From assembly GCA_017520935.1 (NCBI GenBank), contig JAFXEF010000013.1, forward strand, positions 62,001-126,000: a DNA stretch of 64,000 nucleotides, written 5' to 3'. The stretch's first letter is position 1. Each line of letters starts with the position of its first letter. The notes under the pieces are model-generated. The model was not told the origin of the DNA and did no database searches. It was given only the letters and a program-made list of their open reading frames with translations. The stretch comes from Bacteroidaceae bacterium. GTDB taxonomy: Bacteria > Bacteroidota > Bacteroidia > Bacteroidales > Bacteroidaceae. A program made the translations under genes and the position numbers. Shown here piece after piece: positions 3,649-61,927 of this stretch.

Positions 3649-6600
3649 ATGAGAAAACAAATCACTACTCTACTCCGACGCGGAATGGCTCTGTGCCTCA
3701 CCACCGCGCTTACTGCAGGTGCCATAGCCCAGTCATGGGTCGATGTCACCGACACCTACATCGTGAACCCCAGTTACGAAAATGGTACGACGGGATGGAC
3801 TGATGGAACAGCCGAGCCTGTAGTCAATGCAACTTACCAGAATGCCGAGTTCTATAACAAGAAAAACTCAGCCTTGCAAACCATCAGCGGATTGCAGGCT
3901 GGCAAGTATAAGCTCACCGTGCAGGCCTTCTTCCGCCCGCAGGGAAACAATCAAGCTGAAATCGACAGACACAACAACGGAACAGAAGTCATTGAAGGCT
4001 ACGTCGTGGCAGGTGACAGTGCCGTGAAGATCAAGTCGCTCTTCAGTGAGCCCAACAACGCCACGGTGAACGCCCTCAATGGCTATCCCAACGGAATGGA
4101 GGGTGCCAATGCATACTTTACGGTATACCCCGAAAGCTACATGAACGAGGTGTACTTCACCATCACCGACCAGACCACCATCAAAATAGGTATCGACGTG
4201 CGTGCCGGCAGCGGTAACCGCTGGGCATGTTGGGACAACTTCCGCCTCTACGTGGAGGGCAGCGAATTCGATGCCTTCGCTGTAAAGCAGACCAAGATGC
4301 AGATCCTCACCGACTCGCTCAAAAGCCTCGGAGTAGCAGCCTACACCGAAATGCAGGCTATCGTGGACCAATATAGCGGCTACAATGCCGACACCCCTGC
4401 AGCCGACATACAGGCTGCCGAGGCTGTCATCGCAGAGAAGATGGGCTACCTCAACACCTTGATAGCCCAGGCAGCCAAGCTCAGAAGCGCTATTGACGCA
4501 GCGACAGAGGCCGACAACAAATATGGTGCTACATTGCCCACAGCCGTACGCGAAGTACTCACCGAAGGTATCACCGCTGCCGAAGCCGTGATGCAGCTCG
4601 CCACACTGGCCGAGTTTACCACCGCTGCCGACCAGGCTGTCACCGACATGCAGAATGCGACCAAGAAGATTACCGACTTCGTAGCACTCTCCTATCCGCT
4701 CAACAAGGCCAAGGAGCTGGCCGACCGCATCGGAGGACTCGGTGACACTGAAGCCTATGCCGCCGTGGTGGCATCGCTCGCCAATGCCGAACTTGGCTTC
4801 GACGAGATGGCACTCAACGTGGCACAGCTCAATGCCGTGATGCGTGAGAAGATGACCGTAGCCTTCCTCAGCAGCGCTACCGACGAGAACCCCATCGACA
4901 TGACCTCATTCATTGTCAACCCCAACATCTACCAGAACGGCCCGATGACCGCAAACCCCGGTGGATGGATTTGCGTACGCGACAATCGTGACGGCAATGC
5001 ACGCACCACCAGCGAATATGGCGAATCAGACCTCTATACCTACCACTGGACAGGCTCGCTCATCGCAAACTCACACTACCACCAGAAGATAGGCGGCAAC
5101 GAAGAGGGTGCCGTGAAGCTCCCTGCCGGACTCTACAACTTGAAAGCCACCACCTTCTGCAACAATGGTCCTGCCAACAGTCACTTATGGGCTACACCCG
5201 ACAGCGTGAACTTCAAGACCGTGGACTTCTCGGCCAGCACCGAAGCCGAATATGAGGCTCTGCGCGAACAGATGGAAACCAACACCCTCATCGAGGGCAT
5301 CGAGGTGGGTTCCGACGGTACACTCTACATCGGTATGCACGCCACAGCAGGCAGCGGCAACGGACGCTACTTCCGTGCCGACAACTTCCGTCTCTACTAC
5401 GTGAACGCCGATGTTATCAAGGCTTACCAAGACCGCTTGGCCTCACGCCTCGAGACCGCACAGCCCCTCCATGAGAAACTGACCGAGTATGGCATCGACG
5501 ATGCCGACTACCTGGGTATCGCACTCGATGAAGAGGAGGGCTACAAGGCATTCATCGAGGAGGGCACAGTAGAGGAGTTACAACAAGCCATCGAGGATAT
5601 GGATGTGTTGATTGCTGCCGCTGAACAGATTATCGCCAACTACGATGCCCTAAGTCCCCTGCTTGAGGGATGCACCGCCGTAGCTACTCAGCTCGATGAG
5701 GGACTCATCTTCGCACAGCCCGGTATTATCGGCACCTTCAAGGATGCGTTGGAGACCGCAGCAGCCAATGCCGAGAACCTGACATGGGATAACTACCTGA
5801 CCGAGAAGCTTGTGGCAGACACCGAGGCGCTCGCAGCCGAGTCGGCCAAGATCAATGCCTCCATCGCCCTCTGCTTCACCATGGGCAAGGCCAAGCTGCT
5901 TGCCGACCGCATCGGTGGGCTCAGCACCGACCCCGCCTACACCGCAGTAGCCGAGGCACTCATCAACGACAACCTGGAAAAGATTGATGCCGAGCTCAAC
6001 ACTGCAGCGCTCAACGCACTTATCGCCGAAGCACTGGCCACAGCACAAATCAGCGACATCGCCACCAACCCGCTCGACATGACCTCATTCATCGTCAACC
6101 CCAACATCTACCAGGATCACCTCGAGGCCGAGCAGCCCAGCGCCATCGTACTTCCTGGATGGGAGACCACAACCAATGCGGACAAGCCCGAACGCACAGG
6201 CAGCGCCAGTGGCGACACCTGGATGTACTGCTACAGCTGGTCGGGACATGAGGGACACAACATCGCCTCAGCCACCGACTACCGTCAGACCATCGGCAAC
6301 CTCGGCGATGAAGAGGGCAAGGTAGCACTCCCCAAGGGATACTACCAAGCCACAGCAGCCACCTACGCCTCGGCCGGTGCCGGCAACCTGCGCCTCTACA
6401 CCATGAGCCGCAATGCCGAGAAGCAGACACTGACAGATGTCAGCGGCAACGACAGCATCGTATACACCTACTCTGACACGCTGTATGTAGACAGCACCTT
6501 CAACGCCGACCTCGACGTATGGAACATCGCACAACGCGAGCTGGGTACCACCACCGAAACTGGTGTGATACTCATCGAGAAAGGTCACATGGTGATAGGC

Positions 6601-6843
6601 ATACGCGGTACGGGTATCGTGGGCGGCAACGGACGCTTCTGGCATGCCGACAACTTCCGCCTCTTCTACTACGGTACCACCAAACCCGAAGACGCAGAAC
6701 CTCAGCCCGGCGGCATACAAACTGCCGAGAAAGAGAACAGCCCTGCAGGTATCTACGACCTCATGGGACGCCACTACACAAGCAAGAACCAGCTCGCACG
6801 CGGCATCTATCTTGTCAATGGCAAGAAAGTCATCATCAGATAA
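3649..6843 (+). CDS. Large secreted protein with three related beta-type modules and a sorting-domain-like C-terminus
   Basis: 1064 aa with a signal peptide (about 1-28, cleavage after AIAQ). Three modules of about 170-190 residues are visible. Each starts near a TSFIVNPNIYQ-like or YIVNPSYENG sequence and ends in a conserved DNFRLY motif (about 195-205, 575-585, 1000-1010). This layout resembles carbohydrate-binding or jelly-roll modules. They are joined by helical linkers that are themselves repeated (KAKELADRIGGL and GKAKLLADRIGGL). The last 35 residues contain GIYDLMGR and RGIYLVNGKKVIIR, like a type A C-terminal sorting or Bacteroidales IYDLxGR tail. No catalytic motif is recognised. As first gene after the HTCS it probably binds the locus's ligand at the cell surface; that role is inferred. 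Confidence 0.75.
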   Translation: MRKQITTLLRRGMALCLTTALTAGAIAQSWVDVTDTYIVNPSYENGTTGWTDGTAEPVVNATYQNAEFYNKKNSALQTISGLQAGKYKLTVQAFFRPQGNNQAEIDRHNNGTEVIEGYVVAGDSAVKIKSLFSEPNNATVNALNGYPNGMEGANAYFTVYPESYMNEVYFTITDQTTIKIGIDVRAGSGNRWACWDNFRLYVEGSEFDAFAVKQTKMQILTDSLKSLGVAAYTEMQAIVDQYSGYNADTPAADIQAAEAVIAEKMGYLNTLIAQAAKLRSAIDAATEADNKYGATLPTAVREVLTEGITAAEAVMQLATLAEFTTAADQAVTDMQNATKKITDFVALSYPLNKAKELADRIGGLGDTEAYAAVVASLANAELGFDEMALNVAQLNAVMREKMTVAFLSSATDENPIDMTSFIVNPNIYQNGPMTANPGGWICVRDNRDGNARTTSEYGESDLYTYHWTGSLIANSHYHQKIGGNEEGAVKLPAGLYNLKATTFCNNGPANSHLWATPDSVNFKTVDFSASTEAEYEALREQMETNTLIEGIEVGSDGTLYIGMHATAGSGNGRYFRADNFRLYYVNADVIKAYQDRLASRLETAQPLHEKLTEYGIDDADYLGIALDEEEGYKAFIEEGTVEELQQAIEDMDVLIAAAEQIIANYDALSPLLEGCTAVATQLDEGLIFAQPGIIGTFKDALETAAANAENLTWDNYLTEKLVADTEALAAESAKINASIALCFTMGKAKLLADRIGGLSTDPAYTAVAEALINDNLEKIDAELNTAALNALIAEALATAQISDIATNPLDMTSFIVNPNIYQDHLEAEQPSAIVLPGWETTTNADKPERTGSASGDTWMYCYSWSGHEGHNIASATDYRQTIGNLGDEEGKVALPKGYYQATAATYASAGAGNLRLYTMSRNAEKQTLTDVSGNDSIVYTYSDTLYVDSTFNADLDVWNIAQRELGTTTETGVILIEKGHMVIGIRGTGIVGGNGRFWHADNFRLFYYGTTKPEDAEPQPGGIQTAEKENSPAGIYDLMGRHYTSKNQLARGIYLVNGKKVIIR

Positions 6844-6858
6844 TCCTATTTATTCACC

Positions 6859-6897
6859 ATCAGCATACCTTGCGACCAGTACGCGAGGTATGCTGAT
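6859..6897 (+). terminator. Stem-loop between the secreted protein and the first fasciclin gene
   Basis: A 16-bp stem (ATCAGCATACCT arm, one G-U pair) with a 7-nt loop lies 15 bp after the stop codon and is followed by a pyrimidine stretch TCTTCTTC rather than a T-run. It could terminate partially, stabilise the 3' end, or be a processing site. Its last three bases are shared with a second hairpin (6895-6919, GATTCTT/AAGAATC) that ends at the next ATG. Confidence 0.55.
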
Positions 6898-6919
6898 TCT
6901 TCTTCAAAATTAAAGAATC

Positions 6920-9577
6920 ATGCGAAGAGTCATCAGTAAGGTACGCCTGGCACTCTATGCCACAGCAGTGCTCATGGGCATCTCCGTCACCGGATGCAAG
7001 GACGGCTACGAGTGGGCTGAAGAGAAGCCCTCATGGTTAGGCGAAAGTATATACGACGAATTGCAACGCCGTGGCGAATTCAGCATTTTCCTGCAGATGG
7101 CCACCGACCTGGGACGCGACGAGTTTCTCAAGAAGACCGGTAGTGTCACCATATTTGCAGCTACTGATGACGCTTATCGCACCTACTTTGCCCAGCATGG
7201 CATCGACGGCAACAACCTCACTCCGGCACAGAAGAAGTATCTGGTCAATAGTGCCATGCTCGAGAATGCCTATGTGCTGGATCTTCTCACCAACCAATCC
7301 ATTGCCGACGGCATCGCCAAAGGACAGGTGATGCGCCGTACCAACACCCAGTGGGCCGTATACGACTCGATTACTACAATACCAACGGCCTCTCTCCCCA
7401 CAGCCACACCCCTCCACGACTGGTGGAAGAGGCTGCGAACCATGAACCAACCCACATACAACATCATCGCCCAAGGCACCCAGCCTATGGTACACTTCCT
7501 TTGGCGTCAGATGATGACCAAAGGCATCACTCCTACCGACTTTTCCTACCTCTTCGGGGGCACGCCCTTCAACGAAGAGGATGTATATATCAACAATGTA
7601 AAGGTGCGCGAGGGCAACATTACCTGCCAGAACGGTTACATCCACATCATGGACGACGTGCCAACTCCGCTACCCTCCATGGCCATCTACATGTCCGAGA
7701 ACGGACACACCGACCTCTTTGCTCGCCTCATCGACCGCTTCAGCATCCCCCTCTCTGCTACCAAGGTAGCCGAGCAGTATGCCTACCTCTACGACTACTA
7801 TCAGGGACAAGACCTCTACTCCCCGCTGTGGGGAGGCGACTCCATCTATTATAAAAGTTACCTGTGGCGCGATGCCGAGGGCAACGGCATCACCTCCGTT
7901 GGCAATGAAAAGGCCACCGGATGGCTCAAGCTCGACCCCGGATGTCTCGACTACGTGGAGAGCGGCATTGACGAAGGAGTTGACATGGGTGCTATTTTCG
8001 CCCCTACCGATGAAGCGCTCAAAGCCTGGTGGGAGGGTGATGACGGACAGTTCCTGCGTCAGCGCTACCCCAGCGACACGCCCTTCGACAGTGTACCCGA
8101 CAATGTGCTGGCCGAGTTTCTCAACAATCACATCCACCCCTCATTCCTCAGCAGCATTCCCAGTCGCTTCGGCAGCGTGCTCGACGATGCCAAAGATCCC
8201 ATAGGACTCACCACCGACGCTATCGTACCGGGTGCCACAGCTACCTGCTGCAACGGAGCACTCTATGTCATGAACGAAGTATACGCCCCCTCATCGTTCC
8301 GTTCCGTGATAGCTCCCACCCTGGTGGAGGACAACATGAAGATCATGGACTGGGCTATACGTAATCTCGAGTTCAAGCCCTACCTGCTCTCCATGGTGAG
8401 CTACTACAATTACATCATCCTCACCGACGAGGCCCTACGCCGCTACATCGACCCCGTGACCTACAACACCGACGACCCCCGCTGGTTTGAATTCGTGTAC
8501 AACGATGTGCAGCAGACCGTGGATGCCTACACCTACAGCTACGACAAGACCGCAGAAGGCGACGCAGCCTTTACCAACAAGAACATGCGTCCCCTCACCG
8601 CTTCCGAGGGCGTGGCCCATGCCGCCGTGCGCAACCGTCTCACCGACCTGCTCAACTTCACCATCATCCCACGCGACATCTACGGCACCAACATCGTCGG
8701 GCCGCAGACACCCTACCTCATCACCAAGGACAACGGAATCATGGAGATTGTTGACAAGGGAAACGATCTACAAATAAAAGACCAAGTATCAGGAAACTAT
8801 GTCACCATCAAGGAGCGCGTAGAGAAAGATAACGGCTACTACCTCGTGGCCGACCGTATGATACAGCCTACCATGCAGTCGCTACAGATGCTGCTTGAGG
8901 GGCATGAGGAGTACAGCGAGTTTTATGAGCTCCTGCTCGGTAATCCCGAATGGATGCCCGCCGAGCGCAACCTCTATGCCATCATGAAGCGTTCGAGCAG
9001 CAAGACCTACTCCATGAACAGGGACAACACCACCGTGAAGACCTTCAACTCATACCAATACACCGTATACGTACCCGACAACGAAGCCATGCTCAAAGCC
9101 TATGAGCACGGGCTGCCACGCTGGAGCGACATCAACGACCTGACGGAGAAATATGCCGGGCGCGACGACATTGACATCGCACAGTTGAAACACGACTACA
9201 CCATGCGCCTGCTCAACTTCATCAAATATCACTTACAGGATCGTAGCATATACATCGGAGGCGACATCGCCAACGGCACCTACGAGACAGCCGCCTACGT
9301 GCTTGAAGGGGCTCAGGAAGGACTGAGCTATAGCCTGCAGGTAAGCAGCACACCCAACGACATCACCGTCACCGGCAACTATATCCCCTCATGGACGACA
9401 CCCGCTATCGTGAAAGCCACCGAAGCGACAACCGACTATAACCAATCCGTACGTGAATACACCTTTGATGGAGAAAGCTACTCCAACCTCATCAGCACAT
9501 CGAGCTATGCAGTAGTGCACCGCATCAGCGAGCCCCTACTCTACGACGAAGAGTGCCTATGCATTGAGAAGGAATAA
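6920..9577 (+). CDS. Fasciclin (FAS1) lipoprotein with four FAS1-like repeats
   Basis: 885 aa. A lipoprotein signal peptide ends at C26 (VTGC), and the following KDGYEWAEE is acidic, as in Bacteroides surface-export signals. Four FAS1-like units can be traced: about 45-255 (VTIFAATDDAY), 260-470 (GAIFAPTDEAL), 470-680 (YIILTDEAL, degenerate) and 680-885 (YTVYVPDNEAM). Each ends near an NGxxHIMD or NGALYVMNE-type strand. FAS1 domains act in adhesion and ligand binding; no enzymatic function is implied. It lies 42 bp upstream of the chosen SusC start (9620) and is probably co-transcribed. I infer a surface-exposed accessory binding protein of the SusCD complex. Confidence 0.85.
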   Translation: MRRVISKVRLALYATAVLMGISVTGCKDGYEWAEEKPSWLGESIYDELQRRGEFSIFLQMATDLGRDEFLKKTGSVTIFAATDDAYRTYFAQHGIDGNNLTPAQKKYLVNSAMLENAYVLDLLTNQSIADGIAKGQVMRRTNTQWAVYDSITTIPTASLPTATPLHDWWKRLRTMNQPTYNIIAQGTQPMVHFLWRQMMTKGITPTDFSYLFGGTPFNEEDVYINNVKVREGNITCQNGYIHIMDDVPTPLPSMAIYMSENGHTDLFARLIDRFSIPLSATKVAEQYAYLYDYYQGQDLYSPLWGGDSIYYKSYLWRDAEGNGITSVGNEKATGWLKLDPGCLDYVESGIDEGVDMGAIFAPTDEALKAWWEGDDGQFLRQRYPSDTPFDSVPDNVLAEFLNNHIHPSFLSSIPSRFGSVLDDAKDPIGLTTDAIVPGATATCCNGALYVMNEVYAPSSFRSVIAPTLVEDNMKIMDWAIRNLEFKPYLLSMVSYYNYIILTDEALRRYIDPVTYNTDDPRWFEFVYNDVQQTVDAYTYSYDKTAEGDAAFTNKNMRPLTASEGVAHAAVRNRLTDLLNFTIIPRDIYGTNIVGPQTPYLITKDNGIMEIVDKGNDLQIKDQVSGNYVTIKERVEKDNGYYLVADRMIQPTMQSLQMLLEGHEEYSEFYELLLGNPEWMPAERNLYAIMKRSSSKTYSMNRDNTTVKTFNSYQYTVYVPDNEAMLKAYEHGLPRWSDINDLTEKYAGRDDIDIAQLKHDYTMRLLNFIKYHLQDRSIYIGGDIANGTYETAAYVLEGAQEGLSYSLQVSSTPNDITVTGNYIPSWTTPAIVKATEATTDYNQSVREYTFDGESYSNLISTSSYAVVHRISEPLLYDEECLCIEKE

Positions 9578-9619
9578 AAATGACACATGCCTCACATAAG
9601 ACAACCACACCCACGAATT

Positions 9620-12600
9620 ATGAAACACAGAACCATACATCAGCTGCTCACTCTACTATGCTGCATGCTGCCTTTAACGATACAGGCACAAAGCAGCACC
9701 ACCATCAGCGGTACCGTATCCGATGACTTCGGCCCAGTATTTGGGGCTCACGTGGTAGAGGTCGATGAGGGACAACGTATCATAGAGTCAGCCGTAACCG
9801 ACATGAACGGCAACTTCGCACTGAAAGTACGCGACACGCGACACAAGGTAAGAATCAGCTACGTAGGCTGCAAGACACAGTTCCTGTCCATCGGAGAAAA
9901 ACGGCAGTTTGAGATATTCCTGAAGAGCGATACGCAGATTGAAGAGGTAGTGGTGACGGCAACAACCCGCGTTGCTACCGGCGGACTCGACATCCCCGAA
10001 CGCGAGCAATCATTCTCCCAGCAGACCATGAGCATGAGCAAGCTCGAAGGCCTCTCGTTCACCTCCGTCGACGAGGCACTACAAGGGCAGATTGCCGGAC
10101 TCGACATCGTAAACAACAGCGGAAACTTGGGTAGTGGCACCAGCATGCGTCTGCGCGGTGTATCATCCATCTTCTCCAGTTCAGAGCCACTCATCGTTGT
10201 AGACGGCAACATATTCGAGACGGATGCCAACAACGACATCGACTATAGCAGCATCACAGAGGACAGGTTTGCCGAACTGCTGAGCATCAACGTGGAGGAC
10301 ATCGCCAGCATCACCGTACTGAAGGATGCAGCAGCCACGGCCATCTGGGGAAGTCAGGGCAGCAACGGTGTCATCAGCATCGTCACTAAACGAGGTTCGA
10401 GCGGAAAGCCCCGCGTCAGCTATTCACTACGCTTACGCGGGACCTACCAACCGGAAGGATACACCATGCTCAATGGCGACCAATATACCATGCTGCTGAA
10501 AGAGGAGTTCTTCAATGCTTCTCAGAACCCGGAACGGCTGGAGGAGCTCAGCTACAACCAGAACTACCCTCAATACGAGCAATACAACAACAACACCAAC
10601 TGGCAGAATGCAGTGAAGCAATTCGGACTGTTCCAGAGCCATCACTTGTCTATCGCCGGTGGAGGTGAGAAAGCCAACTACCGCATATCTGCAGGCTATG
10701 ACCATCAGGAGGGAAGCATCATCGCCCAACAACTCGACCGCTTCTCTACCCGTATGGCCCTTGACTATTTCGTGAGCGACCGCATCAGAATCAGTAGTTC
10801 ATTTGCCCTCACCTACACAGACAACAAACAGAACAGCGACGGGTTGCTGGGTATAGCCATCGTGAAGATGCCCAACATGGCTATCTACGACGAGGATGCC
10901 TTAGGCAACAGTCTGGGTACCTACTTCCGGATGGACGAATTTACCGAAACATACTCTGGCGATAGAGACGAGTTGTCGGCACAACGCTCGCTGGTGAACC
11001 CCGTGGCATCGGCATGGCTGGCACAAAAGGGAAACCGCTCATACAACGTGGTTCCAACATTTGACATCAACTACAAGCTGCTGGGGGTGGACGAGGAGCG
11101 TACACAGCTCAACTATACGGGTAGTGTGGCACTGTCTATACTCAATGGGTATAACGACAGCTATTATCCCTTCGAACTGAAAAGTGTGAAATGGACCGAG
11201 ACGCAGGGAGCAGTGAACTCCGCGTCATCGAGTTTCAACAAGAGTTTCGGATTCACCACCACACACCGTCTGACTTTCATCCCCGCACTGGCCAACAAGG
11301 ATCACTCGATACGTACCATGCTGCAAGGACAAATGGTCACCGGAAATTCCAACAGCCAGTCACTGAGCAGCTATATGCTCCCCGGAGCGAACATCACGAT
11401 GGCGGCCACAGGTGGCCACCTGAGCAATACGAACACCGGATCAGGACAATGGCGCAGTGCCAACTGGGTGCTACAGGCACACTACTCATACAAGTCGAAG
11501 TACTCGCTCGACTGGTCAATGCGTGCCGATGGCAGCACACGCTTCGGTCCCTCGCACCGCTGGGGCTACTTCTACGCAGCCTCGGGACGTTGGAACGTAA
11601 TCGACGAGACGTTCATGGATGGAGCACGCGAATGGATGTCGATGCTTTCGGTACGCGCGGGATGGGGTATCACCGGTACACAGCCAGGTGCCAATGACCT
11701 GCACTACTCAATATACCAGTCTGACGGCAAGTACATCAATACGCCCGGTATGCGCCCCGTTAACATACGCCTTACCGACCTTCGTTGGGAAAAGCAGAAC
11801 TCGTGGAATGCGGGTATCGACCTCGGACTGATGGACAACCTGTTGACAGCATCGGTGAATCTCTATGCCCAGTACAAGAGCGACCTGCTGACCAAGAATC
11901 CATCAATACCGACGACGAGCGGGTTTGCCACACTGAACTACGAGAACAATGGAAAGATGAAGAACCAAGGTTACGAAATCAATCTTAACGTCAACCGTTT
12001 CAGACTGGCAGGTGATGTGCAGGCATCGACCTATCTCAACTTTGCCAACAACCGCAACACCATCACCGAAATGGACGAGATACGCCTCAATGCCATCAAT
12101 GGTACAGGCGTGAAGCTACCAACCAACGGGAACTATGTGACGCGCGTGCAACTCAACAACCCTTTCGGAGCCATCTACGGACTCCGTTACAAAGGGGTAT
12201 ATGCCTACAGCTACGACCACTACAACAAAGCAGTTGCCGAAGGAGCATCATGCCCCGTGGCACGCGACAAGGACGGCAAGGTCATCTATGGAGCCAACAA
12301 CAAGCCGATGCAACTGTACTATGACTACCACAACACCAAATATGCCTTCACGGGAGGTGATGCCATCTACGAGGACATCAACTATGATGGAAACATCAAC
12401 GAACTGGATCTGGTGTACCTGGGTTCATCGTTGCCGAAGTTGACGGGCGGATTCGGATTCAACCTCTACTACAAGGCATGGACTCTGAAAGCGATGTTCA
12501 ATTACCGCTACGGCAATAAGGTGGTGAATAGGGCGCGTATGCTGGCCGAAAACATGTATGGCACCAATAACCAGACAACAACTGTCAACTACCGCTGGCG

Positions 12601-12934: not shown

Positions 12935-12940
12935 TGCATT

Positions 12941-14569
12941 ATGAAAAAGAAAATGATAGCGGCAATAGCCACAACACTGATGTTGACCTCGTGTAATGAC
13001 TTCCTGGCCGACTTCCTCACACTGAAACCGCTCAACGCCGTCAGTGTAGAGAACTATTGGGAGAAGAAGAGCGAGGTGGAAAGTTGCATCGCCTCGTGCT
13101 ACTACGCCATGCAAGATGCCAACTTTGCCAAACGCGTCATCGCCTGGGGCGAGATGCGAGCCGACAACATCACTGACAACGCAGCACTGCAAAATAGCGA
13201 GAACGACTACAACTACTACGTCAACAACATTACCTCACAAAACACATGGTGCTCATGGGCAGCAGTGTACAACGTCATCAACCTATGCAACACCGTACTG
13301 TACTATGCCCCGGGAGCTCAAGAGAAAGACGGCAACTTCACCGAAGAGGAGTTGCTGAGCTACAGTGCCGAGGTACGGAGCATCAGGGCATTGTGCTACT
13401 TTTATCTGATACGCACCTTTAAGAAGGTGCCGCTCGTGACCATAGCCACGATTGGAGACGATGAAGACTTCAAGGTAGCAGCCTCGAACGAAGAGGAGGT
13501 GCTGGCACAGATCATCGAAGACTTGGAATGGGCCAAAGAACATATTTGGGGAGAGCGTTTCTTCGACACTCCCGCCGAGCGAAAGGGACGATTCAACAAA
13601 CTCAGCGTAAAAGCCATGCTGGCCGATGTGCACCTATGGGCAGGCAACTATGCACTATGCGCAGAATATGCAGATGAAGTGATAGCAGCCAAACAGGCTG
13701 AGTACGCCCTGCAACAACAGCAGGTGGCGCAAGGTGACAATGAACTGTACTATGCCAACGGAACCTTGAGCCTATATGCAGGGTATCCCCTCATTGACGG
13801 CACCACCCTGCACTATGCCAACCAGCAAATCTTCATTACCGGCAACAGCTTCGAGAGCCTCCTTGAGCTGCAATACGACTTCGACATCAGGGACAACAGT
13901 GGCGTTACCTCACTATACGGTTCCACCCGCACCCTCACGGGAGGCATGCTCTCGGCAGCCAACTACATCATCGACAAGCAGGCCGGGTCACTGTTCGAAG
14001 ATGTCAACGATGGACGCCTCACCGACAATGTCAACTATGACGGATTCACCACCTCAAACAGCTACTCCATACTGAAGTACAGAGCTGCCAAGGACGACAA
14101 TGAGCAGATTCAGATGAGTGGGAAAGCAGCCAATTGGATCATCTACCGCCTCACCGACGTGATGCTCATGCGGGCTGAAGCGCTCGCCTACCTGGGCGGC
14201 GAGGAAAACCTGCAAGAGGCATTCCTGCTCGTCAAGGCGGTGAACGAACGCGCCTGTGGAGGCACGAGCAGGCTACTGACCATGCCCGATGACATGAAAC
14301 GGCTGGTGCTCGATGAACGGCAGCGCGAACTGATGTTCGAGGGCAAGCGATGGTATGACCTCATGCGCATGGTGCGACATGCCGACGAACCAGCCAAGAT
14401 GATGTCGACCCTGCGCAACACCTATCTGTTACGCAAGTACCAGACTGGAGGAAGAGATGCCGTCACCCGACTGGCCAGCATCGATAACCTGTATCTGCCC
14501 TTCTACCAACCAGAGATAGATGTCAACCCCCTATTGGAGGTAGACCAGAACCCAGCCTATCAGTATTGA
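12941..14569 (+). CDS. SusD/RagB-like surface lipoprotein (first pair)
   Basis: 542 aa; lipobox LTSC with C18, followed by NDF. The N-terminal helical segment (KPLNAVSVENYWEKKSEVESCIASCYYAM), the TPR-like region with AEVRSIRALCYFYLIRTF, and the C-terminal DERQRELMFEGKRWYDLMRM signature are all typical of SusD. Such proteins form a lid over the SusC barrel and capture substrate. The gene starts 6 bp after the susC-like stop, so the two are translated from one message. Confidence 0.95.
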   Translation: MKKKMIAAIATTLMLTSCNDFLADFLTLKPLNAVSVENYWEKKSEVESCIASCYYAMQDANFAKRVIAWGEMRADNITDNAALQNSENDYNYYVNNITSQNTWCSWAAVYNVINLCNTVLYYAPGAQEKDGNFTEEELLSYSAEVRSIRALCYFYLIRTFKKVPLVTIATIGDDEDFKVAASNEEEVLAQIIEDLEWAKEHIWGERFFDTPAERKGRFNKLSVKAMLADVHLWAGNYALCAEYADEVIAAKQAEYALQQQQVAQGDNELYYANGTLSLYAGYPLIDGTTLHYANQQIFITGNSFESLLELQYDFDIRDNSGVTSLYGSTRTLTGGMLSAANYIIDKQAGSLFEDVNDGRLTDNVNYDGFTTSNSYSILKYRAAKDDNEQIQMSGKAANWIIYRLTDVMLMRAEALAYLGGEENLQEAFLLVKAVNERACGGTSRLLTMPDDMKRLVLDERQRELMFEGKRWYDLMRMVRHADEPAKMMSTLRNTYLLRKYQTGGRDAVTRLASIDNLYLPFYQPEIDVNPLLEVDQNPAYQY

Positions 14570-14590
14570 GAAACCACAAAAGACCCGTAT

Positions 14591-16633
14591 ATGAAAGCCA
14601 AGAACAAAATATGGATAGTGGTCATGGCCATGACCTTGACAATGACAGGATGCTATGACGATGGTGTCGAAGGCGACAGCTTCTATGTGAGCCAGCAGCA
14701 AACCATAGGAGACTTTCTGGAGGCCGGTGAACAGTACTCCGCCTTCAATCAGATACTCGCACGTGCCGGCATAAAAGGTCTGATGACAACCTATGGACAA
14801 TACACCTGTCTGGCACCGACCAACGAAGCCATAGAGCAATACATTACAGAGCACCATCCCGGCATGGAACTCGGGACACTGCCCGACAGCACAGTCACCG
14901 CCATAGCCAAAAGCCATATCATTGGAGAGGCATTGCTCACACACGACATGCACACCGGATACCTTCCCCGGGCCAATATGTATGAAAGGAAGATACAGGT
15001 GACCATCACACAAGAGTATGACTCTACACGGGGTGACTCGGTCACGGTGTACCGCCTCAACACTAAATCACGCATCATCGCTGCCAACGACACAGTGACC
15101 AATGGTGTGATACACACCCTCGACCACGTGTTGGAGCAGTCGAGCTATGTACTGCCCGACTACATGCAGTCGCGGTGCGAGGCACTGGGATTCACCCTGT
15201 TTATGGCAGCACTGCAAAAGACACAACTCACCGACCTCCTTCTGGAAGAGAAGGACGAGAGCGAAGCGATGGTGCAGAAACTGGCACAATATGCAGCCAA
15301 GTACACTGGTACAGGAGAAAAGGTGCCCGCATCGAGACGACTGGGCTACACCGTGTTCGTAGAGAAAGACGAAGTGTACGCTACACTCACCGACCCGCTG
15401 AATGACAATAAACCCATCTACACGGGAGACCTCGAAAGCGATATCGCATCGCTGGCCAACTATGCCAAGGTGATGATGGACGAGGTGTATCCTGGCGATG
15501 CCGGCCTCTACGATGACAACCCTGCACACCGAAAGAATCCGCTCAACAGGTACATGGCCTATCACATCCTCGACAGAAACGTAGGATACAACAATCTGGT
15601 GAATGCCACCCGCGACTGGAGTGTCAACGAAGGTGGCGACTACACCGAATACTATGAAACTCTGGAAGGCAATCTACTGCGTCTGCAGACCGTATCGGGT
15701 AAAGGCAACGCGGTATATCTCAACCGTTTCATGCGCTCCAACAATGCTGTCGAAGGGGTGGAAGTCAAGAGCACGGAAGGAGAGTCCACCATCAACGGCA
15801 ACTTCCAGTTTGTGAACGGCATACTTAAATTCGATGCAGAAGTGGTAAGTATGTTCAAGAACACCCGTATCCGCATCGACACAGGGTCGTTGCTCAAGGA
15901 GCTGACCAACAACGACATCCGCCTTGACAAGGACGATGAGATGCTGTGGTGGTATTTCCCCACAGGCTACTTCGACGGGCTGGACTATGATGACAACAGC
16001 GAATGCAAGTATAACCGTTGGCCTGCAGGCAAGAGCGCCGGCAACGGCACACACAAGGATCTGGCAGCACATCAGACCGATAACCTCAACTTCGACGGAG
16101 AATACGATGTCACCATACGCTTCCCGGCTGTCCCCGCAGGACAGTATGAGATACGCTTGGGTTACTGCTGCAACGCCTTGATGAGCATCTCGCAAATCTA
16201 CTTCGGCTACGACAAGCAGCTGATGATGCCCGTAGGCATCCCCCTCGACATGAACCTCACAGGCATGGATCCCAAGGTGGGCATGATCCAGGACATCAAC
16301 CTCTTCGATGACATCACCTCGGACGCATCGGCCAACGTGGGAGGATTAGTCACCATCACCGAGAACGACAGAGCCATGCGCAACCTCGGATATATGAAGG
16401 GACCCGCAGCCATGTATCGCGTGGAGAATGACCGTGTGACCCAAAAATCACGGATGACCAACGACTGGTGGTACATGAGACGCATCATCACCACCCAACA
16501 GCTCGATGGCAGGCCTTTCTACTTGAGATTCAGAAAGGTGGATGAGCGCACAGGAAGATTGCTCAATCTTGACTTCATTGAGGTTTGCCCACGTAGCATA
16601 TACAACGGAGCGATACCCGAAGACAGATTCTAA
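14591..16633 (+). CDS. Fasciclin (FAS1) lipoprotein with a C-terminal beta-sandwich-like domain
   Basis: 680 aa; lipobox TMTGC with C21 followed by the acidic YDDGVEGD. A clear FAS1 domain (about 30-180) contains YTCLAPTNEAIEQY and ends with NGVIHTLDHVLE. A second, divergent one (about 185-420) contains YTVFVEKDEVYATL. The remaining 250 residues are beta-rich (VTIRFPAVPAGQYEIRLGY) and resemble a ligand-binding sandwich more than FAS1; I cannot name this domain. The gene starts 21 bp after the first SusD gene. Probably a surface protein of the SusCD complex, with binding rather than catalytic function. Confidence 0.82.
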   Translation: MKAKNKIWIVVMAMTLTMTGCYDDGVEGDSFYVSQQQTIGDFLEAGEQYSAFNQILARAGIKGLMTTYGQYTCLAPTNEAIEQYITEHHPGMELGTLPDSTVTAIAKSHIIGEALLTHDMHTGYLPRANMYERKIQVTITQEYDSTRGDSVTVYRLNTKSRIIAANDTVTNGVIHTLDHVLEQSSYVLPDYMQSRCEALGFTLFMAALQKTQLTDLLLEEKDESEAMVQKLAQYAAKYTGTGEKVPASRRLGYTVFVEKDEVYATLTDPLNDNKPIYTGDLESDIASLANYAKVMMDEVYPGDAGLYDDNPAHRKNPLNRYMAYHILDRNVGYNNLVNATRDWSVNEGGDYTEYYETLEGNLLRLQTVSGKGNAVYLNRFMRSNNAVEGVEVKSTEGESTINGNFQFVNGILKFDAEVVSMFKNTRIRIDTGSLLKELTNNDIRLDKDDEMLWWYFPTGYFDGLDYDDNSECKYNRWPAGKSAGNGTHKDLAAHQTDNLNFDGEYDVTIRFPAVPAGQYEIRLGYCCNALMSISQIYFGYDKQLMMPVGIPLDMNLTGMDPKVGMIQDINLFDDITSDASANVGGLVTITENDRAMRNLGYMKGPAAMYRVENDRVTQKSRMTNDWWYMRRIITTQQLDGRPFYLRFRKVDERTGRLLNLDFIEVCPRSIYNGAIPEDRF

Positions 16634-16674
16634 GAGGAGTATCCACGAAGTGTGACCAAGAAAAAGAGTAGAGT

Positions 16675-18162
16675 ATGAAGAACAAGCATTTTATATTAAG
16701 CGTAATGGTTGCCGCTACCACACTGTCGTGTACCGACAGCTGGGAGGAGCATTACGCTGTGCCCGCCCAGTCGACAACAACGCTGTGGCAACAGATCTCC
16801 GATAACGTCGAACTGGACGACTTTGCCCGCCTATTGCAGTCGAGAGGTTACGACAAACTGCTCGACAGTGACCAGCGGTTCACCGTATGGGCTCCCAAAG
16901 GCAAGATTGACACCTCCTTAGTTACAGGCGGCATGATGTCGGATGAGGAAATCACAACACAGGTAATCGAGAACCACATAGCTCGCTCGCTCATCTCGGT
17001 GTCGGCAGCAAAGGCAGACTCGATAAAAACGCTCAATGGTAAGCTGATGCGCCTTATCGGTGACGGCATTCACGTGGCATTCAACGGAGTGCGCATCGAG
17101 AGTCCCAACATGGAATGTAGCAATGGACTACTCCACATCGTTGAACAGCAAGTCAGATTCAACAACAACATCTGGACCTATCTGCGCCAGGACAACGACC
17201 TGCAACAACTATGCGACTACCTGTACGGATTCAACCGTCAGGAGTTTGACCCCAATGCCAGCACTTTGGGCGGTGTCGTAGGTGGCGAGAAGGTATATAG
17301 CGACTCCGTATTCATCACAACCAACGAACTATGGTCAAGGATGGGACAACTCAATGCAGAGAACACGTCGTACGTGATGACGGCTCCCACCAACCAAGCA
17401 TGGGAAGAAACGGTAGAGGAGTTCAAGGCCTTCTACCGCTACCCGGAAGGCATCTATAAGCACATGGGCGACTCCGTAGCCAAACGACGCATCACGGAGT
17501 ATTTAGTGCGCCGGACTGACAGCGAAGAACCGCTACCCTATGAGGCACTCATCACCGACACGGTGGATTGCAGCAACGGAACACTGCTGAAAGCCGAAGC
17601 TCTGAACATCGACCCCTACGAGACATTCGTGCAGGACATCGTCATCGAAGCCGAAGCCGAGGCATACATGACCAAGGAGCCCAGCAACTGCGAAGCCACA
17701 AGCGTGTTTGTTGTAACAGGGAAGAACGAACTGAGCAAAAACCGCTACATGAAGTTAGTGGCAACATCGCCTCTGTTGAAACCCACAGTAACCTACGTGC
17801 TGCCCAATGTACTGTCGTGCAAATATGACATCGGCGTAGTGTTCGTGCCCATGAACCTGACCAAGAACGGGTATTCCTCCGTCATCGACCCGAAGGACGG
17901 AAGAGTCGATGTGGAGCTGTACGATGACTACCTCGGCGAAGTGTACAAGAGCACAGGTCTTGACATTGACGGCACAACGATCGATACGGTGTGGGTGCGC
18001 GAGGAGCATCAGTTTGAGTACTGCGACTATTACCCCAACAGAGAGAAGCTGACGGACTCTAAGCTCACACTGAAGATAACGGGAACAGCCAAGCGAACCG
18101 AAACTACCCTAAGCCGCGACATGTACATTGACTGCATCGTATTGCGCCCACGAAGATACTAA
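16675..18162 (+). CDS. Fasciclin (FAS1) lipoprotein, shorter
   Basis: 495 aa; lipobox TTLSC with C19 followed by TDSWEEHY. FAS1 unit one (about 28-165) has FTVWAPKGKID and ends NGLLHIVEQQV. Unit two (about 166-325) has YVMTAPTNQAWEE and ends NGTLLKAEALN. The C-terminal 170 residues are beta-rich (YVLPNVLSCKYDIGVVFVPMNL) and share general shape, not obvious sequence, with the end of the preceding fasciclin protein. It sits 20 bp before the second susC-like gene. The arrangement suggests one fasciclin protein dedicated to each SusCD pair plus one shared. Confidence 0.82.
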   Translation: MKNKHFILSVMVAATTLSCTDSWEEHYAVPAQSTTTLWQQISDNVELDDFARLLQSRGYDKLLDSDQRFTVWAPKGKIDTSLVTGGMMSDEEITTQVIENHIARSLISVSAAKADSIKTLNGKLMRLIGDGIHVAFNGVRIESPNMECSNGLLHIVEQQVRFNNNIWTYLRQDNDLQQLCDYLYGFNRQEFDPNASTLGGVVGGEKVYSDSVFITTNELWSRMGQLNAENTSYVMTAPTNQAWEETVEEFKAFYRYPEGIYKHMGDSVAKRRITEYLVRRTDSEEPLPYEALITDTVDCSNGTLLKAEALNIDPYETFVQDIVIEAEAEAYMTKEPSNCEATSVFVVTGKNELSKNRYMKLVATSPLLKPTVTYVLPNVLSCKYDIGVVFVPMNLTKNGYSSVIDPKDGRVDVELYDDYLGEVYKSTGLDIDGTTIDTVWVREEHQFEYCDYYPNREKLTDSKLTLKITGTAKRTETTLSRDMYIDCIVLRPRRY

Positions 18163-18181
18163 CCGATAACATTGAACATCT

Positions 18182-21100
18182 ATGAGACACATACTCCTAC
18201 TGTTAACAACCATCCTGTGGGCAGCACAGCCTGCCATGCCACAAGAGACGGTGTGGAAAGGCTCCGTCGTGAGCCATGCCACGGGAATGCCCATCGCGGG
18301 TGCCATAGTCACGGCAGAGAGTGATGCACGATACAGCGCAATGAGCGATACGAAGGGCACGTTTGAGATTACATTGCCACCACACATCGGCACGTTGACC
18401 GTAGAGGCCACCGACCACAAGAGCGTCACCCTACACCTTCCCGCGGAAGGAACAGCCATCAAGGTACTGATGCACCCGGCCATCGTCCCCTCGGCAGCAG
18501 CTACCGCACTCACCATCGAGGATAACTTGGCCACGAAGCAAGCCGAAGGACTGAGAACGATAAGAGGGAGCTCCAACCCTGCACAAGGAGCCATGCTCAT
18601 GCTCGGAGGATGGCATTCGCTCAACAGCAACGCCACACCGCTAATCGTAGTCGACGGTGTAGTATTGGATCAGCAGAACGACCGCCCCCTGCTACATCAA
18701 GGGTACCTGAACAATGTGCTCAGTGCCATAAGCCCTGACGACATAGAGAAGGTGAGCATCCTACACGACGCCACAGCACTGTATGGAGCCAAAGGCGGAG
18801 GAGGTGTCATACTGATAGAGACGAAACGCGCCAAGTCAATGGCAACGCGCATCGACGTGAACCTCCGCAGCGGCATGGAGTGGATGCCACGCCTGCCACA
18901 GATGATGAACGCAGCACAATATAGAAGTTACGCGGCAGACATATTGGGCAATGCGACCACAACACCCGAATTCCTGAGCAATCAGACTGCCGACAAGCAA
19001 CTCTATGCCATGTACCACAACGACACCGACTGGAGCCGAGCAGTGTATCAGAAAGCACTGACCCAGTACTACGGCATAAACGTACAAGGAGGCGACGAAA
19101 TTGCAAAGTATAACCTCGGCATCAACTACAGCAATGCCGAGAGCACACTCAAGGGAAATGATTTTGACCGCTTGTCGCTGCGTTTCAACACGGATGTCAA
19201 CATCGTGGATCCACTAACCGTGCAGCTCGACGTGGCCTATAGCAATACGGGGCGCAACCTGCGCGATGATGGTATACATAGTGGAGACAACTTTGCCCCA
19301 TCGGCTTTGGCACTCATCAAATCGCCCTTGCTCAATAGCCACATGGCCGACAAGAGCGGAAACTTCACAGCCTCACTGGCCGACTACGACGTATTCGGCA
19401 TCAGCAACCCATTGGCAATCATCGAAGGAGGAGATGCCAGCAACAAGAACTCATTGTCCTACAACCTGTTTTTCATGAACATACGCCCCGAATGGCGATT
19501 AGGGAAGCACCTGACGATAAGCGAGCAGGTGAGCTACGTGCTCAACAACGTCACCGAACGCTACTTCATGCCCGATGAGGGAGTGCCCACCATTGTGAAC
19601 GGAACAGATGCCGCCATCAACAATCAGTCGAGAGCCTATTCCTCGAAACAAACGTCACTGATGAGCGATACCCGATTGACATGGAGCGCAAGGCATGGCC
19701 TTCACCGGATGAAAACGGTAGGAGGGATGCGCTACATGAGCGACACCTATAACAACGACGGTATATCAGCAAGCAACACTGTGAGCGACAAGATGCCCAA
19801 CATCACTGCTACCATGGACAATCGGCAGGTTACCGGATGCTACGAACAATGGAAATCGGCAGCACTGTACCTGCATGCCGACTACAGCTACACTGACCGC
19901 TACGACCTGACAGCATCGCTCACTGGAGAGACCTCTACACGCTACGGACGCAACGCACAGGGAGGTATCACTGTGGGCGACTATGTATGGGCGATGTTCC
20001 CATCATTGCAGGCAAGGTGGAACGTATCGGCCGAGCCCTTCTTCCGCAAGACCAAAGCCATCAGCCAGTTGGCAATCACGGCAGGTATCGACCAAAGCGG
20101 CAACGACCGTATCCCCCCCTATGCCTCACGCAGCTACTTCACCACCACCCCATTCATCAATGGCACTGCAGGCATCAGCCTCGGCCATATCGGCAACGAC
20201 AAACTGCGATGGGAGACCACCACACGCCTGCACGTAGGAGCACAGATGCGCGCCTTCGAGGAGCGGTGGGGAATAGCCGTCAAGGCCACCAAGAGCTACA
20301 CAGACAACCTGCTGGTGTGGAAACCTCTCGATGGCATCAGCGGACTCAGCCGCTACCTGTGCAACGAAGGCCAGTTGGAGAACATCAGCTATAGCCTGCA
20401 CACCGATATCCGACTGCTGAGCCGGCGCAACCTATCATGGGACATCTACGGGACAGCCAATAGCTATGCCAACAGACTGACCGCGCTGCCCGAAGGAAAC
20501 AAAAGCTTCACGACCGACTATATGGAGGGGCAGTTGCTGACTGCCATCGACAACCCGATTGCTGTGTTCTACGGATACCGCACGAACGGAGTATTCGCCA
20601 CCACAGAAGCTGCACAGGAGGCCGCTATCCGGATGGGCTCAGAAAGAGGATACCAACTGCAGGCCGGCGACCCCGTATACATTGACACCAACGATGACCA
20701 CATAATCAATGAGGAAGATCGCCAGATTATCGGAGACCCCAATCCCGACCTCTTCGGCTCGTTCGGCACCACACTGACATGGCGAGGGTTCACCTTCGAT
20801 GCATCCTTTACATACAACATCGGAGGCGACATCTACAACTATGCCCGGCGAGTGCTCGAGCAGGGAGGCAGCTACCATAACCAAACAACAGCCATGTTGC
20901 GCAGATGGGTACGAGAAGGGCAACAGACCGACGTGCCACGTGCCAACTCAGCCAGCAAGACCTCGGGGTATGGGTTCACCGACCGGTGGATTGAGGACGG
21001 CAGTTACATGAAGCTCAGAAGCGTATCGGTGAGCTACCATAAGCCACTCGCCCTCTCCTTCATGCAAGGATTTACCGTATGGGTAGCGGCCAACAACATG

Positions 21101-21232
21101 TTCACCCTGACACGCTATCTCGGTGCCGACCCCGAAGTGAGCTGTTCGCGCAATGCCCTCTACCAAGGTATCGACTGTGGCCTGCTGGGTGAGGGACGTA
21201 GCGTAACGGCAGGAATAAAAATCAATCTATAA
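18182..21232 (+). CDS. SusC-like TonB-dependent outer-membrane protein (second pair), atypical N-terminus
   Basis: 1016 aa; signal peptide ends about TMPQ (residue 21), followed by a carboxypeptidase-regulatory-like domain (about 23-95). The plug has TPLIVVDGVV (about 152) and YGAKGGGGVILIETK (about 201), and the barrel ends in VTAGIKINL. The usual EEVVVxG/TonB-box motif between regulatory domain and plug is not visible; the region reads instead VPSAAATALTIEDNLATKQ. The plug is also shorter than in the first SusC-like protein. It may couple poorly to TonB or use a divergent box. It pairs with the SusD-like gene 24 bp downstream. Confidence 0.88.
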   Translation: MRHILLLLTTILWAAQPAMPQETVWKGSVVSHATGMPIAGAIVTAESDARYSAMSDTKGTFEITLPPHIGTLTVEATDHKSVTLHLPAEGTAIKVLMHPAIVPSAAATALTIEDNLATKQAEGLRTIRGSSNPAQGAMLMLGGWHSLNSNATPLIVVDGVVLDQQNDRPLLHQGYLNNVLSAISPDDIEKVSILHDATALYGAKGGGGVILIETKRAKSMATRIDVNLRSGMEWMPRLPQMMNAAQYRSYAADILGNATTTPEFLSNQTADKQLYAMYHNDTDWSRAVYQKALTQYYGINVQGGDEIAKYNLGINYSNAESTLKGNDFDRLSLRFNTDVNIVDPLTVQLDVAYSNTGRNLRDDGIHSGDNFAPSALALIKSPLLNSHMADKSGNFTASLADYDVFGISNPLAIIEGGDASNKNSLSYNLFFMNIRPEWRLGKHLTISEQVSYVLNNVTERYFMPDEGVPTIVNGTDAAINNQSRAYSSKQTSLMSDTRLTWSARHGLHRMKTVGGMRYMSDTYNNDGISASNTVSDKMPNITATMDNRQVTGCYEQWKSAALYLHADYSYTDRYDLTASLTGETSTRYGRNAQGGITVGDYVWAMFPSLQARWNVSAEPFFRKTKAISQLAITAGIDQSGNDRIPPYASRSYFTTTPFINGTAGISLGHIGNDKLRWETTTRLHVGAQMRAFEERWGIAVKATKSYTDNLLVWKPLDGISGLSRYLCNEGQLENISYSLHTDIRLLSRRNLSWDIYGTANSYANRLTALPEGNKSFTTDYMEGQLLTAIDNPIAVFYGYRTNGVFATTEAAQEAAIRMGSERGYQLQAGDPVYIDTNDDHIINEEDRQIIGDPNPDLFGSFGTTLTWRGFTFDASFTYNIGGDIYNYARRVLEQGGSYHNQTTAMLRRWVREGQQTDVPRANSASKTSGYGFTDRWIEDGSYMKLRSVSVSYHKPLALSFMQGFTVWVAANNMFTLTRYLGADPEVSCSRNALYQGIDCGLLGEGRSVTAGIKINL

Positions 21233-21256
21233 CACACATATATCATATATAGCTCT

Positions 21257-22990
21257 ATGAAAAAGTTTTTCTTGAGTATTTTCACCCTATCACTGCTATT
21301 CACCTCGTGCGATGTGGAGACCATAGATGTTGCATTCACAGAGGATCATCAGATAGACACCCCCTCCGATACCGTATTCAGCGTATTGGGGATATTGGCT
21401 CATGTCCAAAGAGTCGCCGACCAGACGGTCATCCTGGGTGAGGTAAGAGGAGACCTGGTGCAACTGCGACCCGACATTACCGACGAAGACCTCACCGTAT
21501 TGGGTAACTTCGAGACAGACTCGCCCAACAAATACAACCCCTATCGCGAGCTCTATGCCATTGTCAATAATTGCAACTACTACCTTCACGAGGCACCTGA
21601 CGACATGTACCGTGAAGGCGAAAACATTTTCGCCCGTGAGCGTGCCGCAGTGAGTGCCATACGATGCTGGAGCTACCTGCAGCTGGCAATGAACTTCGAG
21701 AGAGTACCTTATTATACTACCCCGCTCCTATCGTTCAGCGATATTGAGAAAGTGGCCGGCGACACATCCAATCGCAAGAGCATCGACGAGCTGTGCGACC
21801 TCCTCATCCCCGAGCTGGAGAGTCACCTCAACGTAGGATACCCCACATACGGCAACTTCACCTACGGGCAGGACTACACTGTCAACAGCCGCAAGTTCTT
21901 CTTCCCCATACCTCTTCTATTGGCCGACATGCACCTATGGAGAGCATCCATAAGAGGGCAGGAAGAGGACTACATAAAAGCGGCACAGTACTACCACGAT
22001 TATCTCGTGGAGGAGCAATATAGCGTATGGTCCCAACACACCAACAGCTACACTGACACCGAGTTCATCACGACAACATTGTCATGGAACCAACTATACA
22101 CGGGCGACCGCTATTGGGACACCGAACGCATCAGCATCATCCCCATGGCTACCCATGCCAACTATGGGCAGACCTCCAATCTGCAGCAGGTGATGGGCAA
22201 GCTGCAAGGAAGCGAAGCCTTGAAGGAACTGGCCGGCAACCAGTTCTATTGCCACGTAGGCATCACCGACGAGGTGGACGAAGACCCCGACCTCATTCCG
22301 TCAAGATACCAGTTGCTCATTGATGACTCCATATACGGCACCAAGGCACACCCCGAACTGCTCCACTATATACACGTGGCTGGCGAACCGAGCTATGCCC
22401 GTGGCGACCTCCGCATCTACAAGCCACAGGAGCAGGAGGGCGAATACACAATAAGCATCGATAAGTTCCCGGCACGTTACCCCCACATCAGCACCTACCG
22501 TTCCAACCACATATACCTGCGACTGGCCGAGGCCATCTGCCGGGCAGGATACCCCGAAACGGCATTCTGCATGCTCAAGTACGGACTCAGCAGAGGCAAT
22601 ATGCTAATGTACAACCAGAAGGAACTGCCCCAATTGCTCCTGTCGGGACACACATTCTACGACTTCGGCAACAACAAGAACCAAATAGGGATACACGCCC
22701 GGGGATGCGGCAACATTGAGATGGACACCATCTTCTACCAACTTCCCCTTGAGCTGTCGGCCGACGAGAAGATCGAGTATGTAGAAGATCTCATCTGCGA
22801 CGAACTGGCACTCGACTGCAGTTTCGAAGGATTGCGCTACTTTGACCTCATGCGCTTTGCCCATCGCCGGGGCACCGACTACTTAGCCTCACGCATTGCA
22901 CGGCGTGTTACCCCACAGACGCCCGATGAGAGCCTTCGGCTGAAGCTACAGGACAAAGCAAACTGGTATCTCAAGCCCGTCAGCGAATAA
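21257..22990 (+). CDS. SusD/RagB-like surface lipoprotein (second pair)
   Basis: 577 aa; lipobox FTSC with C18, then DVETID. The SusD layout is present: RERAAVSAIRCWSYLQLAMNF (about 128-148), FFFPIPLLLADMHLW, and the C-terminal ELALDCSFEGLRYFDLMRF motif. Last gene of the plus-strand locus; a stem-loop follows immediately. Substrate is unknown; sequence identity with the first SusD appears low outside the family motifs, so the two pairs may bind different ligands. Confidence 0.92.
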   Translation: MKKFFLSIFTLSLLFTSCDVETIDVAFTEDHQIDTPSDTVFSVLGILAHVQRVADQTVILGEVRGDLVQLRPDITDEDLTVLGNFETDSPNKYNPYRELYAIVNNCNYYLHEAPDDMYREGENIFARERAAVSAIRCWSYLQLAMNFERVPYYTTPLLSFSDIEKVAGDTSNRKSIDELCDLLIPELESHLNVGYPTYGNFTYGQDYTVNSRKFFFPIPLLLADMHLWRASIRGQEEDYIKAAQYYHDYLVEEQYSVWSQHTNSYTDTEFITTTLSWNQLYTGDRYWDTERISIIPMATHANYGQTSNLQQVMGKLQGSEALKELAGNQFYCHVGITDEVDEDPDLIPSRYQLLIDDSIYGTKAHPELLHYIHVAGEPSYARGDLRIYKPQEQEGEYTISIDKFPARYPHISTYRSNHIYLRLAEAICRAGYPETAFCMLKYGLSRGNMLMYNQKELPQLLLSGHTFYDFGNNKNQIGIHARGCGNIEMDTIFYQLPLELSADEKIEYVEDLICDELALDCSFEGLRYFDLMRFAHRRGTDYLASRIARRVTPQTPDESLRLKLQDKANWYLKPVSE

Positions 22991-61891: not shown

Positions 61892-61927
61892 CCCCTCATA
61901 TAAGAAACACCAAAAGCAAGAGACGCA

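Follow-up and report, generated by a model that had tools for sequence, protein, structure and literature searches.

How does a Sus-like locus with two SusC/SusD pairs and three fasciclin (FAS1) lipoproteins operate when no degrading enzyme is apparent among its genes, and which ligand would it take up? The question is raised by a stretch of 64,000 nucleotides from a Bacteroidaceae bacterium (assembly GCA_017520935.1; source genome of 2.89 Mb in 64 contigs, 87% complete), which covers positions 62001-126000 of contig C49 and is referred to here as the window; C, G and L numbers denote contigs, genomes and loci, respectively. An earlier reading of the window (the original prediction) described eight consecutive genes behind a regulator, without a degrading enzyme, and proposed the FAS1 proteins as structural parts of SusCD complexes. 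Our analysis establishes that seven of these genes are a conserved cassette across distant Bacteroidota. This cassette is probably a dual-SusCD importer in which the FAS1 lipoproteins act as surface glycan-binding or scaffold parts, taking up fragments of the rhamnogalacturonan I (RG-I) type within a larger pectin-type polysaccharide utilization locus (PUL), a reading built on genomic sequence.

Gene content and recurrence of the cassette

Domains of the window proteins were assigned with Pfam and NCBIfam profiles. Eight genes on the forward strand (3649-22990) sit behind a hybrid two-component system (HTCS) regulator, and the last seven follow the order FAS1a-SusC1-SusD1-FAS1b-FAS1c-SusC2-SusD2 (6920-22990), preceded by a secreted leader protein. 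All three FAS1 lipoproteins exceed the curated PF02469 cut-off of 22 bits, and their segment make-up was established by profile comparison of the segments: FAS1a (6920-9577; 885 amino acids, lipobox TGC; E 1.3e-14, 54.9 bits) contains several FAS1-like segments, FAS1b (14591-16633; 680 amino acids; E 4.2e-16, 59.7 bits) two segments and a C-terminal domain of about 280 amino acids, and FAS1c (16675-18162; 495 amino acids; E 4.5e-12, 46.7 bits) two segments and a C-terminal domain. The TonB-linked outer-membrane transporters SusC1 (9587-12934; TIGR04056, 651 bits) and SusC2 (18182-21232; TIGR04056, 486 bits) share 31% identity, SusC2 belonging to a separate conserved lineage. The SusD1 lipoprotein (12941-14569) matches PF07980 (E 1.1e-26) and PF14322 (E 1.6e-13). 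SusD2 (21257-22990) is a divergent SusD lipoprotein with a PF07980 match below the cut-off (E 2.7e-4), and its position and family are conserved in other copies of the cassette; a PDB sequence search with SusD2 returned nothing useful.

The two adjacent SusC/SusD pairs (TIGR04056; PF07980/PF14322) place the locus among Sus-like PULs, and the inventory of eight genes under an HTCS stands as originally predicted. The same is true of the missing catalytic motifs, since the Pfam and NCBIfam searches of the eight proteins detected no domain of a hydrolase, lyase, esterase, sulfatase or peptidase. Intergenic gaps from FAS1a through SusD2 measure 6-41 bp, which suggests a single transcription unit. 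Open reading frames (ORFs) of similar size at 58856-63556 were considered as a second SusCD system and rejected, as they match neither SusC nor SusD profiles.

The organization of this locus exceeds what chance would produce, because the source genome has two further sets of the seven genes and 47 complete sets were found in other Bacteroidota. The two further source copies, on contigs C44 and C23 (three in total), keep the gene order, their members being 32-55% identical between copies and matching one to one. Family profiles built from these three copies were then used to classify 79 loci obtained from a FAS1b alignment scan of GTDB species genomes. All seven families occur in order in the 47 copies (FAS1b being doubled in 6 of them), additional copies are interrupted by contig ends, and 20 loci hold FAS1b only. 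The carriers, mostly metagenome-assembled genomes, are chiefly Bacteroidales of the rumen and hindgut, rumen Prevotella included, together with Breznakibacter xylanolyticus and the marine genera Mariniflexile and Jejuia. A strong FAS1a profile match (at least 126 bits, counted by hand) was found in 21 of the 247 Bacteroidales genomes sampled and in six class-mates outside Bacteroidales, all six with a complete cassette. Gene order is permuted in G098, where the composition of the cassette is retained; two such permuted cassettes (L105/L106, contig C7) flank an HTCS-like gene.

Pairwise distances of the seven families, compared over 39 cassettes, correlate with r of 0.86-0.95, as expected if the families are inherited together. 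This result is supportive rather than proof of interaction, because shared species history also contributes to it. Taken with the conserved co-occurrence and near-fixed order, the co-divergence of the FAS1 proteins with both SusCD pairs supports their being working parts of the system, so that the functional side of the original proposal is upheld, whereas a physical complex is put forward here as a conjecture. Nearly all FAS1 and SusD members of the cassette copies carry lipoboxes, and the habits of their families suggest exposure at the cell surface. The nearest solved structures of the FAS1 proteins are TGFBI and periostin. The C-terminal domain of FAS1b is conserved, and PDB and Pfam searches gave no reliable relative; matches to MiXBM (E 0.09) and CGTase (E 0.08) are too weak to support a fold. 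Lone FAS1b paralogues follow directly after DPP-IV/S9 peptidase genes at L011 4843-9192 (C49), L014 6366-10633 (C8), L034 and L074, a second recurrent context of this FAS1 family and one that may reflect a role linked to peptides.

Neighboring enzymes and the probable ligand

The HTCS gene (19-3525, forward strand) was recognized as a regulator from its domains (Reg_prop, Y_Y_Y, HisKA, HATPase_c, Response_reg and HTH_18). The window begins inside this gene and holds its 3' part, the start lying about 525 bases left of the edge (L009 19446). Directly before it, on the same strand, L009 11038-19068 encodes a GH43 protein, an 894-amino-acid protein with an alginate-lyase domain (PF05426), a GH31 protein and a weak GH43-like protein, and this run of carbohydrate-active enzyme (CAZyme) genes ends 377 bases ahead of the HTCS. 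A divergent cluster further left contains GH43, GH51, another PF05426 protein, two GH28, GH88/105 and GH97. The claim that the locus lacks a degrading enzyme was thus an effect of the window edge: CAZyme genes directly precede the HTCS, and enzyme absence is a property of the seven-gene cassette rather than of the locus. Strand and adjacency suggest that the left-hand enzymes, the HTCS and the cassette form one regulon. Three proteins with weak PF05426 domains occur in this pectin-type cluster (L009 583-3258, L009 12800-15484 and L010 9888-12239); two of them, of about 890 amino acids and with alike N-termini, possibly represent an undescribed enzyme type.

The window copy therefore shares its locus with CAZyme genes, which many other copies do not. 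Universal pectin context was rejected for this reason, many copies being located among housekeeping genes, an arrangement which also indicates that the enzyme-free cassette is able to stand alone. The original suggestion that the ligand has already been cut by others is accordingly sustained in part, for the cassette itself encodes no enzyme and in many genomes stands without a linked degrader, but the locus of the source genome has adjacent CAZymes. The C23 copy, for example, follows a PD40 lipoprotein gene and precedes amidase, MlaD-like and dnaA-like genes. In eight genomes (L015 1657-3162, L024, L030, L046, L048, L052, L053 and L077), a gene of a PD40 beta-propeller lipoprotein family stands ahead of the C23-type cassette.

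Where specific enzymes recur beside the cassette, they concern rhamnogalacturonan and L-rhamnose. In the source genome the C44 copy is preceded by a PL11 rhamnogalacturonan lyase of 1522 amino acids. PL11 genes also stand next or nearly next to the cassette at L019, L021, L040 and L080 and in G128 and G025, and the loci where PL11 adjoins or lies two genes off include, besides these four, L098/L099 and L100. Enzyme counts within 25 kb of the cassette (10 kb for the L-rhamnose transporter RhaT) were compared with a uniform expectation in 27 cassette genomes. PL11 gave 10 genes against 1.9 expected (5 genomes, P 0.019), GH106 rhamnosidases 6 genomes against 1.8 (P 0.005, gene numbers de-duplicated by hand) and RhaT 3 genomes against 0.3 (P 0.004), whereas the control family GH13 showed no enrichment (2 against 4.9 expected). 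These P values are nominal, because families were picked after PL11 had been noticed and several were tested. Of the 21 Bacteroidales genomes that match FAS1a strongly, 13 have PL11, against 19 of the 226 others, a hand count that ignores kinship.

Catabolic genes are found in the same neighborhoods. The cassette of G497 adjoins RhaT, a rhamnulose-1-phosphate aldolase/dehydrogenase, an L-rhamnose isomerase-type protein and an FGGY kinase; in G279, RhaT was matched and the rest of a similar set was recognized by appearance. In G128 the cassette is preceded by the end of an L-rhamnose isomerase gene and an FGGY kinase. Curated models identified an L-rhamnose operon at L133 (RhaT, 539 bits; RhaD-dehydrogenase, 1415 bits), an L-rhamnose isomerase at L098, a lactaldehyde reductase downstream of the cassette at L019 and a BT4145-type rhamnosidase at L121, and in G253 a BT4145-type alpha-L-rhamnosidase and a rhamnogalacturonase-like GH28 lie near the cassette. 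The enrichment of PL11, GH106 and RhaT, and not of GH13, links a subset of copies to rhamnogalacturonan; for some copies at least, the evidence favors RG-I or a related glycan rich in rhamnose as the ligand.

Several observations weigh against this assignment. Among the genes near the window copy, those of the alginate-lyase fold, GH31 and GH97 do not single out rhamnogalacturonan, and the source genome gave no RhaT match. Many copies, that on C23 included, lack a CAZyme neighbor; next to them are amidase, MlaD, dnaA or tRNA synthetase genes, and different copies may therefore take up different ligands. Neither GH28 (8 against 4.4 expected, P 0.13) nor GH78 (4 against 2.9) is significantly enriched. 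Finally, three Bacteroidales PL11 loci that lack FAS1a, in G145, G120 and G202, use one ordinary SusCD pair from a different lineage and have no FAS1 gene; the cassette is therefore not required for rhamnogalacturonan use.

Leader protein, hairpin and competing explanations

The leader gene (3649-6843, forward strand) encodes a secreted protein of 1064 amino acids with three related modules joined by helical linkers (module 2 against module 3, E 1.5e-17) and a C-terminal tail, GIYLVNGKKVIIR, that resembles a type IX sorting signal; Pfam, NCBIfam and PDB searches with it gave no match. A SprA fragment was found in the source genome, which therefore holds at least part of a type IX secretion system. 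The gene preceding the cassette varies between copies. A leader homologue was considered beside the closest relative, L017, and rejected, the 22% over 444 positions amounting to no similarity. Recurrent large neighbors of a cassette subtype in another Bacteroidales group, at L112 5818-9693 and as genes of 828-846 amino acids by the cassettes of G230, G065 and G216, carry Por_Secre_tail, match a lamin-tail domain weakly and include no CAZyme. The 76-bp gap between leader and FAS1a contains a hairpin with a perfect 16-bp stem (6859-6897, forward strand; -26.9 kcal/mol, z -8.2), which may be an attenuator, a terminator or a processing site. On the same contig, a PL11-type rhamnogalacturonan lyase gene (50889-52883, reverse strand; PF21348, E 1.6e-216) stands 28 kb from the cassette and is mentioned as context, not as part of it.

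The original prediction had also named a peptide or glycopeptide as a possible ligand. RagAB, a single-pair system, imports peptides in Porphyromonas gingivalis, and a cassette working in its manner, with FAS1 proteins binding proteinaceous ligands, would suit the absence of an enzyme, the match of SusC1 and SusC2 to RagA as well as to glycan SusC chains in the PDB, and the single FAS1b genes elsewhere, two of them in the source genome, that adjoin DPP-IV/S9 peptidase genes. Full cassettes, however, have no recurrent peptidase neighbors; their recurrent specific neighbors are rhamnogalacturonan enzymes and L-rhamnose genes, and several copies have an adjacent HTCS regulator (some recognized by eye), a type that usually senses glycan products. 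With the over-represented neighbors pointing to rhamnogalacturonan and L-rhamnose, peptide import is not the best reading of the locus and we consider it unlikely.

Similarly improbable is a conserved Bacteroidales role in general envelope or housekeeping transport, to which the pectin links would be secondary in some copies. The fixed C23-type neighborhood (PD40 lipoprotein, cassette, amidase, MlaD) over several species, with dnaA next in the source copy, and the tRNA synthetase genes beside other Prevotella copies would agree with such a role, but a strong FAS1a match in about 21 of 247 Bacteroidales genomes is too patchy for a core function, and the copies duplicate and diverge inside genomes. 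Least probable of all is that the FAS1 proteins mediate adhesion to plant material, linked to the SusCD pairs by co-regulation only. Eukaryotic FAS1 domains are cell-adhesion domains, those of TGFBI and periostin are the closest solved structures, and the gene before the cassette often has a secreted product that ends in a type IX-like tail (16 of 37, against 18 of 302 other ORFs, by a pattern chosen after the tails had been seen). Yet the FAS1 proteins fall into three distinct families, occupy fixed positions between two SusCD pairs and co-diverge with the transporters, which is more in keeping with a transport assembly than with free adhesins. Adhesion, which the original prediction had also allowed, does not by itself explain two conserved TonB-dependent importers.

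Proposed mechanism and relation to known systems

Under the favored reading of a dual-SusCD importer for RG-I-type fragments, the HTCS would sense a breakdown product of the glycan, which the CAZymes encoded just left of the window would cut and the secreted leader protein may help to capture. The three FAS1 lipoproteins would fill the place of surface glycan-binding or scaffold proteins and hold the glycan near the barrels, probably sitting on them, while two different SusC barrels with SusD lids would import the oligosaccharides. The likeliest ligands would be rhamnose-containing pectic fragments, namely RG-I and its side chains. The place given to the FAS1 proteins follows the example of the levan and dextran utilisomes, in which SusC is a platform for extra lipoproteins and one SusCD type is combined with one glycan-binding protein and one surface hydrolase (PMC7618045). 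A SusCD core with extra surface lipoproteins on the SusC lip is likewise the probable architecture here, but the cassette combines two types of SusCD with three FAS1 lipoproteins and lacks a hydrolase.

A dual-SusCD importer for RG-I is already known, because the RG-I PUL of Bacteroides thetaiotaomicron (BT4145-BT4183) has the pairs BT4164/65 and BT4168/69 around the surface glycan-binding protein BT4167, with the lyase BT4170 next in number (PMC8002723). Its SusC-SusD-X-Y-SusC-SusD arrangement matches the cassette when published layouts, not sequences, are compared (PMC8002723), and a BT4145-type alpha-rhamnosidase lies beside one cassette; unlike the cassette, the B. thetaiotaomicron locus carries its own enzymes. 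RagAB, as noted, is also a SusCD-type importer without its own CAZyme, and RagA is among the PDB matches of the cassette SusC proteins. It differs in consisting of one pair, for which we know of no FAS1 partners, whereas the cassette has FAS1 partners and pectin-gene neighbors. TGFBI and periostin belong to the same domain family as the cassette FAS1 proteins by profile (E 1.6e-43 over four repeats), although the latter are bacterial lipoproteins in an uptake operon and FAS1b has an additional C-terminal domain. A literature search, with most subscription journals outside its coverage, found no paper describing FAS1 genes and SusCD pairs as a unit.

FAS1 proteins are commonly annotated as adhesins; the cassette gives them a bacterial role, that of probable components of a glycan importer. 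The seven genes also make up a portable unit, one that escapes annotation because PUL finding based on CAZymes depends on enzymes being present. Predictions follow as to why two SusCD pairs stay together and about their substrates, of which rhamnogalacturonan is the first candidate. A more tentative and rather doubtful extension is that both SusCD pairs, unlike as they are, join with the three FAS1 lipoproteins in one mixed assembly. In this hetero-utilisome SusC1 would pair with SusC2, and the bridging and loading of the barrels would fall to FAS1 domains rather than to a surface enzyme; if true, this would represent an enzyme-free class of glycan uptake machine across Bacteroidota.

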